29,255 nucleotides of DNA from a virus. Each line of letters starts with the position of its first letter. Position 1 is the first letter of the stretch. Position numbers and translations under genes: made by a program. Under the pieces are notes generated by a model. It ran no database searches. It had not been told where the DNA came from and was given only the letters and a program-made list of their open reading frames with translations. The stretch lies in IMG/VR virus record IMGVR_UViG_3300023501_000034, positions 1 to 29,255 of that record. One strand, 5' to 3'. Below, piece by piece: positions 5,681 through 24,967 of this stretch.

Positions 5681-5726
<46 letters not shown>

Positions 5727-10807: not shown

Positions 10808-11740
10808 ATGAACCTTGATAAATACAATCCATCGCCCACAGTGCAGAAAATTTACGAACACTACGAGGCAAGCCGCGATAACGGCCACAGGCCGCATCTG
10901 GGGGGAAGTCAGATAGGCAACCCGTGCAGTCGGGCATTGTGGTATCAGTTTCGACACGCAAGCTCACAGAGCTTTGAGGGGCGTATGCTGCGCCTGTTTG
11001 AAACGGGTGACCGCGAGGAGGAGCGGATCGTGTCAAACTTGAGATCGATTGGCGTTGAGGTGTGGGAGGTCGATCCAGACACTGGCCGACAGATAAATTA
11101 CACGGCCTGCGGGGGTCACTTTGGATTGAGCTTAGATGGAATTGGCGTTGGCTTTCCTGAGAGCAAAGAGCCGCACACTTTGGAATTTAAAACGATGAAC
11201 GATAAGAGCTTTGCCCAGACAAAAATGAAGGGCGTCAGGATCAGTAAGCCCGTTTACTGGGCGCAGTGCCAAGTCGGGATGCACTTGGCTGACATTGATC
11301 GTTGTTATTTCTTTGCCGTGAACAAAAATAACGATGAGATTTATTCTGAGCGGATCAAGCGGGATCGGGCAGAGGGTGAGATGCTAATTAGCAAAGCCAG
11401 CAATATCATCTTTGACGAAAAGCCACCGTCTAAAATCAGCCATGACCCGTCAAAGTTTGCTTGTAGGTTTTGTAATTATATTCCGATTTGTCACGGCGGT
11501 GAACTGCCAGAAGTTAATGCCAGAACAGACGCCCACAGCACTCCAGAGCGGGACGGCACTTGGAGCCGTAAAGAGGGCGCAGGGGGCCACCTGTTTAATC
11601 CTTTCATGGTTCCTGACGATTGGGAGATCATAGACGCTGGAGATGATTTCGTGGAGTATCAGACCCCACATGGCGTCATCCGCAATCAAGACAACAGCGA
11701 AGAATTGAGGGAGAGGTTATTGAGGGAGAGGTTTTCGTGA
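10808..11740 (+). CDS. Cas4/AddB-like PD-(D/E)XK exonuclease with Fe-S cluster motif
   Basis: 310 residues. The nuclease core has H104 and D110 (GGHFGLSLDGIG), E126-x-K128 (TLEFKT) and Q153/Q155 (WAQCQVGMHL), the order expected of the PD-(D/E)XK Cas4-like family. Cysteines C40 (IGNPCSRALWY) and C219, C222, C228 (CRFCNYIPIC) are spaced as in the 4Fe-4S cluster of Cas4/AddB nucleases. The C-terminal 70 residues are an extra acidic region. It should resect DNA ends for the Sak4/DUF669 pathway. The ribosome binding site GAGAGGAG is strong. The 3' end contains a 15-base tandem repeat that encodes LRERL-LRERF and doubles the next gene's ribosome binding site. Confidence 0.85.
   Translation: MNLDKYNPSPTVQKIYEHYEASRDNGHRPHLGGSQIGNPCSRALWYQFRHASSQSFEGRMLRLFETGDREEERIVSNLRSIGVEVWEVDPDTGRQINYTACGGHFGLSLDGIGVGFPESKEPHTLEFKTMNDKSFAQTKMKGVRISKPVYWAQCQVGMHLADIDRCYFFAVNKNNDEIYSERIKRDRAEGEMLISKASNIIFDEKPPSKISHDPSKFACRFCNYIPICHGGELPEVNARTDAHSTPERDGTWSRKEGAGGHLFNPFMVPDDWEIIDAGDDFVEYQTPHGVIRNQDNSEELRERLLRERFS
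11705..11734 (+). repeat. 15-bp tandem duplication at nuclease 3' end
   Basis: TTGAGGGAGAGGTTA (11705-11719) is followed at once by TTGAGGGAGAGGTTT (11720-11734). It lies within the last codons of the Cas4-like gene and provides two AGGGAGAGG ribosome binding sites just upstream of the HNH start at 11740. Confidence 0.85.
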
Positions 11741-13978: not shown

Positions 13979-14306
13979 GCACTCTGAACACAGCGAACAG
14001 GTGGGTTTTGTGAACTGGTTTCGGGCCAAATATCCAGACACGCTGATTTTTGCGATCCCAAACGGTGAGAAGCGTAGCATATCTGTGGCGACACGGCTGA
14101 AGGCCGAGGGGGTCACCAGAGGGATACCAGACCTGTACATCCCCTCCTGCAATCTTTGGGTCGAAATGAAGCGCGTGACGGGTGGCAGGCTTTCCCCCGA
14201 TCAGAAAAAAGTGATCGAATATTTAAGATCGGTGGGCCACACTGTAATTGTGGGGAAGGGCGCAGGCGATGCGTCGAAGCAAGTGCTGGAGTTTTTGGAA
14301 AAATGA
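13923..14306 (+). CDS. VRR-NUC nuclease, TTG start
   Basis: 127 residues. The nuclease core is recognisable: EHSEQVGFVNWFRAKYP, then IFAIPNGEKRS, GIPDLYIP (catalytic Asp), WVEMKR (ExK) and SPDQKKVIEYL (Gln). This is the compact phage VRR-NUC type, which cuts branched or nicked DNA. I chose TTG at 13923 because GGAGAGAAAAA lies right before it; an earlier TTG at 13881 lacks such a site and no ATG is available. It overlaps the helicase gene by 56 bases. Together with that gene it probably resolves recombination or replication intermediates. Confidence 0.88.
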   Translation: MKSKKGYTLIGVSKTYRFKHSEHSEQVGFVNWFRAKYPDTLIFAIPNGEKRSISVATRLKAEGVTRGIPDLYIPSCNLWVEMKRVTGGRLSPDQKKVIEYLRSVGHTVIVGKGAGDASKQVLEFLEK

Positions 14307-21763: not shown

Positions 21764-22765
21764 TTAATTTGTTGGGTTCATCAATTTATACGCGCTGTAC
21801 AGGCTACCCAGACCGCTAAGTGTCTGGCCGTACACCGAGGGATCAGCCGACATCTGTGTGCCTGTCTGATAGCCTCTTGACGCCTTAGAGTACGGCGTTT
21901 GGGCCAACGCACCCAGAGCAAAGTTGAGCTGCTCTGCTGGATACTCCCGCTGATCCAAATAATCAGCATAGGCCAAGTCAAGCGCCCGTTGATCAAGCAG
22001 GCGTGTGGCCTCGCCAGATGTAATGAGACCCTGCGCCGTTTGCGCCTGCAAGTCAGCCGCCAGTGTGCCAGCCGATCCGTATGCATCCATTTGGCCGCGC
22101 CGTGACGCCTCATCAGTTTCGTAGCCAGTTCGCATAGCGTTTTCTGCGCTAAACCTGTTAGCACGTTCCGTGTCAAAGCGACCAGCGGCAAAGTCTAAGC
22201 CTTCGCGGCCTGCCCTCGCTCTGAGGTCTCCAGCGGCCTGTGCGCCCTCTCCAGCCGCCGTGCCTTCCATTATGCCCAGACGTGAGCCGAAGGCACCACC
22301 GCCTCTTGCAGCACGGCTTCTAGCATCGTTTTGAGAGCGAATGGTCTGCTCTTCAATTTCGCGCACCGCAGGGTCCATCGCGCCTTGGTAGATGTCCATA
22401 AACGGCTGCGCCGTGTCCATGCTAAATGGATCGCCCATAAGCTCTTCGCGTGTTGCGGCGTCATAGCCTTGGCCCAACGTGTCAGCCACGCCCTCGTATT
22501 TATCCAGATACGGCTGAAAGGTTTCGTCCATAGAGCCAAGCATTCCCATGCCCTCGCGCTCTTGGTCGGTCAGCTTGCTGTTATCATCGCCATATGTCGC
22601 AATGCGATCACCCGAATATGTTGGATAGTCTGACGCTGCTATTTCGGAGGCTTTTTCAAATAATGATCGCCCAGCGGAGGATACCCACGATGGAACTTCA
22701 TCTGCGCTGTATGTATCAGATGAGCTTGGTAGCTCCGAATATGATGGTGTGCAGAAACTGCCCAT
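21764..22765 (-). CDS. Virion protein, possible gp7-like ejection protein
   Basis: 333 residues. Low hydrophobicity, with Ser/Asp/Tyr-rich N-terminus and a middle rich in Arg, Ala and Gly (DARSRAARGGGAFGSRLGIM). Helices with RAREG/RFDTERANRF-type repeats follow. The 'S/N-x-A-x-x-G-G-G-A-F-G-S-R' segment occurs in DNA-transfer (P22 gp7-like) and related ejection proteins as I recall. The order of three such genes in a row matches the three ejection proteins of P22-like phages, but sequence identity is not claimed. The TAA stop of the GNAT gene abuts its start. Confidence 0.6.
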   Translation of the reverse strand: MGSFCTPSYSELPSSSDTYSADEVPSWVSSAGRSLFEKASEIAASDYPTYSGDRIATYGDDNSKLTDQEREGMGMLGSMDETFQPYLDKYEGVADTLGQGYDAATREELMGDPFSMDTAQPFMDIYQGAMDPAVREIEEQTIRSQNDARSRAARGGGAFGSRLGIMEGTAAGEGAQAAGDLRARAGREGLDFAAGRFDTERANRFSAENAMRTGYETDEASRRGQMDAYGSAGTLAADLQAQTAQGLITSGEATRLLDQRALDLAYADYLDQREYPAEQLNFALGALAQTPYSKASRGYQTGTQMSADPSVYGQTLSGLGSLYSAYKLMNPTN

Positions 22766-23203: not shown

Positions 23204-23535
23204 TAGCCCATGCCGCCCAGTGCGCCCATTTGCTCTGGCGCGGCCTCAGAAGCCATCTGACGGGGCATAGGGGCTTGTCCACCGCCTGCGCCACCCTCTA
23301 TCGCCGCGATAAGTTCCGCAAGCTCTGGAAGCAGCTTCATAAGCACTTGCGCCACCTCTGGGCTGATAACGCTGTCGAGCATTGCAAGCTCCTGCTCAGA
23401 CATTGATCCAAGACGCTGAACAAGAGCAGCCGCGATTTCTGGCGATGCTTGGCCCATGTCTTTTTGTGGGCGTTTTTCCTGCCGCATATTAGCGCCACGC
23501 ATTTCGGGCATTTCGGGCATTTGATCAGGTTCCAT
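23203..23535 (-). CDS. Small Met/Pro-rich virion-operon protein
   Basis: 110 residues. N-terminus is Met/Pro/Glu-rich (MEPDQMPEMPEMRG), then a helical middle (EIAAALVQRLGSMSEQELAML, SPEVAQVLMKLLPELAELI) and a Gly/Met-rich end. Likely a small helical structural or assembly protein. Coupled to both neighbours (TAATG and one-base overlap). No family recognised. Confidence 0.6.
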   Translation of the reverse strand: MEPDQMPEMPEMRGANMRQEKRPQKDMGQASPEIAAALVQRLGSMSEQELAMLDSVISPEVAQVLMKLLPELAELIAAIEGGAGGGQAPMPRQMASEAAPEQMGALGGMG

Positions 23536-24638
23536 TATATTTCCTTCGCTTGATATAGAACAGACCAGTCAGTTTTTTGGCAGAAGAAGCCAACCGACCA
23601 GCAAATTGGTTCCAGAATTTTTCGATAAATCTTGCCCAGATAGTCGGGCTTGTCGCGCTTTCCATAGATAAATGCGATTTCGTTGGCTCTGTGTTGTGCT
23701 AGGTGCCGCCACATCTTGACGCCTTTGCCCTTACGCATTTGCTTTACAACGTGTACGGCCCATACGTGATATCCATTGACGTGCTGTGGCGTCAGGTGGT
23801 CTCTGGTAAAGCGGTAGTCCAGCAATACGTCCTGCCTGCTCATAACGCCCTGCCGCTGCAGTTCGTTGCAGATCACACGGCCACCAATAGCGCCACCAAT
23901 AAATCCACCAATACCGGGCATAATCATGTTGCCAATTGCAGCACCAACGCCAGCCTTTACGCCGCCCTTTGCTGCATCGCCCACGCTTTCCCCCGCTAAA
24001 AGACCACCAATGGCCCGACCAGCGCCGTAGCCATAGCCTACGTTTGGCCCTACTGCTTTAGGAGCCTTTGCCCCGCCAAACATTGATTTACCCGCTGCGG
24101 TGAAAGATTCACCGCGACCTAATCCTTCTATGAGTTTAACGCCTTTACTTGCTGGGCTTCCCAACATAAAGCGCCCAACTCTACCGCCAATCATCCCGCC
24201 CAATTCGCCAGCCGCTGCGATCTTCATTGGCCCCATGTCAGTTGATTGTGCATTTGCAGTGCGTGGCGAGGCCATCATTGGTTCGCCGTTAAGAGTTGTG
24301 CCACCAAAGTCTGGCACAGTGGAAAACGTGCGGGTGCCTGTTTGGACAGGCTTTACAAATTCATACATTGGCATGGCGGCAGTGCCGTAAACGTCTTGAA
24401 GGCGCAAGCCTTGAGCAAGAGTGGGGGCTGGCTGGGACTGCATCTGGTAGACATCGACTGTCTCCATACCGTCCTCCGCTGGCAATGCCCCTAGATTGCC
24501 ATAGGGGTCTGGGAGAGCAATCCCACGCTCATCTGTCAGGGCGATGCCAAATGCCCCTAGATTGCCATAGGGGTCTGGGAGAGCAATCCCACGCTCATCT
24601 GTCAGGGCGATGCCATTTGCGTCATACTGAACTGCCAT
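23535..24638 (-). CDS. Glycine-zipper virion protein with duplicated N-terminus
   Basis: 367 residues in three parts. Residues 9-52 contain two identical 22-residue units with the core GIALTDERGIALPDPYG, the product of a perfect 66-bp tandem duplication. Residues 145-255 are Gly/Ala-rich with glycine-zipper segments (GAGRAIGGLLAGESVG, MIMPGIGGFIGGAIGG) able to insert into or cross membranes. Residues 256-367 form a distinct Trp/His/Cys domain (CNELQRQGVMSRQDVLLDYR, NGYHVWAVHVVKQM) that I recall as a C-terminal module in structural proteins of marine phages. A membrane-active ejection or tail-tip role is plausible. The gene lies between the beta-rich small protein and the Met/Pro-rich protein. 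Confidence 0.65.
   Translation of the reverse strand: MAVQYDANGIALTDERGIALPDPYGNLGAFGIALTDERGIALPDPYGNLGALPAEDGMETVDVYQMQSQPAPTLAQGLRLQDVYGTAAMPMYEFVKPVQTGTRTFSTVPDFGGTTLNGEPMMASPRTANAQSTDMGPMKIAAAGELGGMIGGRVGRFMLGSPASKGVKLIEGLGRGESFTAAGKSMFGGAKAPKAVGPNVGYGYGAGRAIGGLLAGESVGDAAKGGVKAGVGAAIGNMIMPGIGGFIGGAIGGRVICNELQRQGVMSRQDVLLDYRFTRDHLTPQHVNGYHVWAVHVVKQMRKGKGVKMWRHLAQHRANEIAFIYGKRDKPDYLGKIYRKILEPICWSVGFFCQKTDWSVLYQAKEI
24484..24615 (-). repeat. Perfect 66-bp tandem duplication (in frame)
   Basis: Copies at 24484-24549 and 24550-24615 are identical base for base. Each encodes 22 residues and each contains the inverted repeat CCCCTA...TAGGGG. Within one unit GIAL-x-D occurs twice, so it is a repeat inside a repeat. 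Identity at silent sites means the event is recent or is maintained by recombination. Confidence 0.95.
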
Positions 24639-24967
24639 CAGGTTATCTCCAATAGTGAGGCCACAACGTGGAGCCGATTTCCATTTGCCGCCGTGACTTT
24701 AAGTATTTCGCCCTCCTGCACAGTGAGGGGCTGCGTTAAAAGCTCTACCGTTGTATTAGCACCTATTGCTTTCGTTTTGAAGAGGCTAAAAATAGCAGGC
24801 GATGCGGCGGCGTCTGTCAGCGTCACCGTGAGCGTATCTGCATTGCCGCTGTCCTCCGATACTAAGATCGACTTCACCAAGGCAGTTGTTGCGCTGGGCG
24901 CGGTGTACAAGACGGTCACGCCCGTTCCCGTCAGATCAACTTTTGCATTTTTATATTTATTAGACAT
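24638..24967 (-). CDS. Small beta-sandwich-like virion protein
   Basis: 109 residues, almost all beta-strand and Thr/Ala/Val-rich (VDLTGTGVTVLYTAPSATTA, DTLTVTLTDAAA, VELLTQPLTVQEGEILKVTA). This kind of short immunoglobulin-like or jelly-roll protein recurs in structural blocks of cyanophages and marine podoviruses as a decoration or tail accessory. Specific function unknown. The start follows the TAG of the previous gene by one base. Confidence 0.7.
   Translation of the reverse strand: MSNKYKNAKVDLTGTGVTVLYTAPSATTALVKSILVSEDSGNADTLTVTLTDAAASPAIFSLFKTKAIGANTTVELLTQPLTVQEGEILKVTAANGNRLHVVASLLEIT

Follow-up and report, generated by a model that had tools for sequence, protein, structure and literature searches.

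An in-frame 66-bp tandem duplication beside a lineage switch in the gene of a putative phage virion protein

The duplicated gene and its neighborhood

The window analyzed here is a 29,255-nucleotide stretch of viral DNA (IMG/VR record IMGVR_UViG_3300023501_000034, positions 1 to 29,255). Its minus strand carries an open reading frame (ORF) of 367 amino acids (positions 23535 to 24638), close to the start of which lies a tandem duplication. Its start codon and the stop codon of the preceding gene overlap; that small gene (24638 to 24967, minus strand) encodes 109 amino acids of family phrog_1276 and resembles lineage A (defined below). Neighboring genes in the window match phrog_4287 (DNA ejection protein), phrog_770 (DNA transfer), and an endolysin. 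A GNAT acetyltransferase–like gene (PF00583; 22766 to 23203) lies within the structural module.

The 367-aa protein comprises a GxxxG stretch (residues 128 to 260) and a conserved C-terminal domain (residues ~254 to 367). A sequence-only reading of this DNA had described a glycine zipper, and the pattern is indeed enriched: residues 128 to 260 hold 17 GxxxG motifs against a mean of 9.2 in shuffled sequences, with 2 of 2000 shuffles as high. The C-terminal domain is conserved across 33 aligned sequences. It is also found in Puniceispirillum phage HMO-2011 (gp49) and Pelagibacter phage HTVC033P, where it is 40 to 43% identical to that of the window. These phages (HMO-2011 in two records) were the only matches in a phage collection, and they match in the C-terminal domain only. 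The N-terminal part of the window protein, including the duplicated segment, is unmatched in them, and the N terminus of gp49 is different.

The sole family match of the window protein is a weak one to phrog_167 (tape measure; E = 5e-4). PHROG tape-measure matches were obtained for 24 of the 33 members (best E = 9e-8), but they are ascribed to the glycine-rich stretch and not counted as evidence of membership. A likeness to colicin B, the best PDB profile (E = 0.021), was likewise set aside as composition, as it runs over a glycine/alanine-rich stretch. Pfam returned no match for the protein, and an AlphaFold2 model built from 33 sequences was too poor for use (mean pLDDT 39.9). Judged by its gene position, the protein is probably located inside the virion and may enter the cell envelope; position and glycine pattern together suggest a DNA-ejection or tail-interior protein. 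It shares a glycine-rich middle and ejection or DNA-transfer neighbors with the podovirus ejection proteins (P22 gp7, gp20, and gp16; T7 gp14, gp15, and gp16; reviewed in PMC8954989), but it has no sequence match to them in the Pfam and PDB profile searches given above.

Within this gene, a 66-bp unit occurs twice in direct succession on the minus strand. Copy 1, the 5′ copy in gene order, occupies positions 24550 to 24615 (gene offset +23 to +88), and copy 2 occupies positions 24484 to 24549 (+89 to +154). Tandem Repeats Finder and a direct-repeat search of the window agree on a period of 66, 2.0 copies, 100% identity, and zero indels, and the frame of the 367-aa ORF is kept. This confirms the perfect in-frame duplication at 24484 to 24615 that had been read from the letters. 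A match of 66 bp is far beyond chance. No other long exact direct repeat exists in the window, where repeated 20-mers are found only at offsets 66, 3, and 313. The offset of 3 represents a TAT microsatellite, with (TAT)8 at positions 5694 to 5717.

At the protein level, residues 9 to 30 read GIALTDERGIALPDPYGNLGAF, and residues 31 to 52 are the same except for the last (F to L), giving 21 matches among 22 residues. The duplication thus adds 22 residues, as had been claimed, but they start at residue 9 and not at the very N terminus. The GIAL sub-repeat described within the unit is present, although weak in the DNA (13 of 24 bases), and the CCCCTA/TAGGGG inverted repeat was found in the unit as well.

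Copy number among relatives

An IMG/VR scan identified 70 loci that encode relatives of the 367-aa protein, 24 of which share its N-terminal segment. We find that this segment is single-copy in every one of the 24. A degenerate motif scan returned 18 contigs, all belonging to these 24 relatives, with one match each; at the duplication site, neither set includes a member of the same species as the window. Two copies were therefore counted in 0 of 24 relatives, which limits the duplication to the window lineage. The idea that length change is ongoing is not supported, since copy number is not variable among relatives (the motif is single in all 18 contigs that have it). The motif was not found in GTDB genomes. 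A search for octad arrays in other phages with the looser pattern DxxG(I/V)A(I/L) gave 20 contigs, 18 of which are from this family; the reading frames of the other two, L091 and L092, look unrelated.

The N-terminal segment contains a pair of octads (GIALTDER GIALPDPY, or GVAITDEN GVALADPL, and close variants) in all 24 relatives. Furthermore, four of the 24 (L014, L015, L019, and L021) have an extra leader of 17 to 20 residues directly after the second codon. The leaders map near position 24632 in window terms. Those of L014 and L021 are identical in DNA, yet the genes fall in different downstream clades.

One relative, L021, carries the identical 66 bases once. Its gene is 95% identical to that of the window over +89 to +399. 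A recent change had been deduced from the identical silent sites of the two copies, but a very recent age is unsupported: the L021 unit is unchanged despite 95% gene identity, so identical copies do not prove a very recent or ongoing change. For 66 bases, a divergence of 0.8% would leave 0 differences with a probability of 0.59, and one of 4.5% with a probability of 0.05. Copy identity is a loose age bound only, compatible with a divergence of up to ~4.5%.

Mosaic structure around the duplication

The alignment for mosaic analysis comprised 18 of the 24 relatives, among which we distinguish lineage A (L015, L017, L018, and L019) and lineage B (L021/L005). Upstream of the start codon, the window is ~99% like L015, and 100 of 101 strict diagnostic sites are of A type (one is neither). 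From +89 to +449, 71 of 73 such sites are of B type, with one A and one neither. The B-like tract (24189 to 24615, minus strand; L021/L005-like) contains both copies and is flanked by stretches that best match L015. Adjoining it is a 43-bp tract shared by A and B (24616 to 24658, minus strand), which includes both the stop/start overlap (TGATG) and a ribosome-binding site (GGAG). The last A-specific site lies at −21, and B-specific sites begin with the first base of copy 1. Thus, the A-to-B switch falls inside the 43-bp tract next to the duplication. Past ~+440, the best match reverts to L015 and then shifts to L002/L007.

Phylogenies on either side of the start codon also differ. Upstream, lineage A and the window form one clade (support 100/100), and a clade of the window, L021, and L005 is rejected (P = 5.8e-7). 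Downstream, the clade of lineage A and the window is rejected (AU test, P = 0.0013), and the window groups with L005, L002, L004, and L046 (99/98), then with L021 (100/100). An exact downstream clade of the window, L021, and L005 is rejected as well (P = 0.016), which indicates that the true donor is absent from the sequence set. L014 is placed with L005/L021 upstream and outside their clade downstream, which makes it one further candidate for an exchange, possibly at the same tract. A conserved start tract linking many different genes was considered and dropped, as the pattern gave 48 stretches, many of them chance matches or other families.

Mosaic exchange at conserved boundary sequences has been described in tailed phages (PMC3029335). 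The window likewise switches in a short tract common to two diverged lineages, at a gene boundary; it differs in having a perfect tandem duplication directly next to the switch. In the window, this tract also serves as ribosome-binding site and stop/start overlap, which gives a separate reason for its conservation. Moreover, the gene shows several mosaic switches, which makes the one adjoining the duplication only mildly surprising: it is suggestive, not proof.

Origin of the duplication

We hold with moderate confidence that the duplication is real, and that it is ordinary in kind, a length change in a single lineage. We lean toward the view that it arose once in the N-terminal spacer, by homology-independent joining at the edge of an exchanged segment, and was kept as tolerable. 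A single event in the window lineage, a marine-type tailed phage, would have joined sequences by template switch or by end joining of overlapping ends. The joining would have taken place at the edge of the exchanged gene segment, and its product would have been retained because it is in frame and 22 extra spacer residues can be tolerated. These added residues are probably near-neutral. We infer that the joining event and the allele exchange were mechanistically linked, although both copies are of B type and the two therefore need not be one event. If real, the duplication is a clean example of in-frame length change in phage structural genes, placed exactly at a gene-exchange point. It reveals no new system, and its main use would be as a marker for copy-number variants in reads from the source habitat.

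The duplication is known from one assembly, because none of the other contigs of this phage species spans it. An assembly artifact, in which two overlapping contig ends were joined and a 66-bp overlap was left uncollapsed, is in our view unlikely. Such a joint would also account for the position of the copy edge at the first A/B diagnostic base, because points of haplotype divergence are where contigs tend to break off. There are exactly two copies, without a partial copy or microhomology, and the longest same-species contig (G002) ends at window position 22501, short of the duplication, so confirmation by another contig is absent. An exact scan for the A-type start tract returned 4 contigs, all of known lineage A, in a set that may lack records closely similar to the window. 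Against an artifact, the duplication is in frame (a chance of one in three), and the gene contains several mosaic switches, which are typical of natural exchange and are seen in other contigs alike. In the stretches compared, the window and the same-species contigs L203 to L206 share 99 to 100% identity. In the full layout of same-species contigs, the pieces aligned to window positions 1 to 22501 are 98.6 to 100% identical, bar a 1.1-kb difference near 14300, which argues that the assembly is generally sound. Furthermore, another perfect in-frame tandem duplication of this genome, two copies of 15 bp at positions 11704 to 11733 near the 3′ end of a 310-aa gene (10808 to 11740), is confirmed by the same-species contigs (4 of 4); of 76 further loci compared, which include truncated ones, 0 have it as a perfect string.

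An HNH endonuclease–like gene (PF13392; 11737 to 12333) lies just ahead of a helicase gene. Near 14300, a same-species contig is ~1.1 kb longer (L284:8202-9298) and has a gene matching TET-associated glycosyltransferase (PF20691, E = 3e-44) that is missing in the window.

Plain replication misalignment would do without recombination: a nascent strand stalled at the hairpin would have re-paired 66 nt back. We regard this, too, as rather improbable. The CCCCTA/TAGGGG hairpin stops 4 nt short of the junction. Among the 24 relatives, only L021 shares the perfect 6-bp stem seen in the window. The 3-nt word GCA sits 2 nt from both breakpoints. Slippage normally relies on direct repeats. The breakpoints themselves show 0 bases of microhomology on either side, and slippage between direct repeats is thus not favored. 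In addition, L021 has the same hairpin but one copy, and the sample is a single duplication. The earlier suggestion was that this inverted repeat may promote slippage. The hairpin is close to the junction, but with a perfect stem in only 1 of 24 relatives, a role for it is possible and rests on one case.

A more specific version of the joining event treats the duplication as a scar of exchange. Here, a strand copied from A would have crossed to a B template at the start-codon tract, extended for 66 nt, and been end-joined to a B fragment beginning at the point of divergence. We consider this sequence of steps doubtful. Were it true, tandem duplications would be diagnostic of start-proximal exchange of N-terminal spacers, as the scars it leaves behind, and this N terminus, with its alternative leaders of 17 to 20 residues, would be a swap site for the N termini of virion proteins. 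Adaptive expansion, in which the doubled GIALxD octads were selected for an added docking motif or for reach, is very improbable with one case only, even though the retained octad pair points to some constraint on the motif and the leaders that four relatives have at this site instead indicate that N-terminal length is evolvable.

A search of the literature for tandem duplication with illegitimate recombination in mosaic phages found nothing related, as judged by title. Returning to the favored reading of a single tolerated duplication, events of this kind are common in genes at the same position. We examined 80 loci with a small upstream gene of the phrog_1276 type, in 78 of which the next gene was readable; this slot is defined by position after the small gene and does not imply homology to the window gene. 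Tandem arrays (period of at least 24, at least 85% matches) occur in the next gene at six of the 78 loci (L128, L131, L137, L149, L164, and L172), all with periods divisible by three. The window duplication resembles such in-frame arrays of phage structural genes in having a unit length divisible by three. It differs from them in being base-perfect, in having exactly two copies, and in its junction without microhomology.
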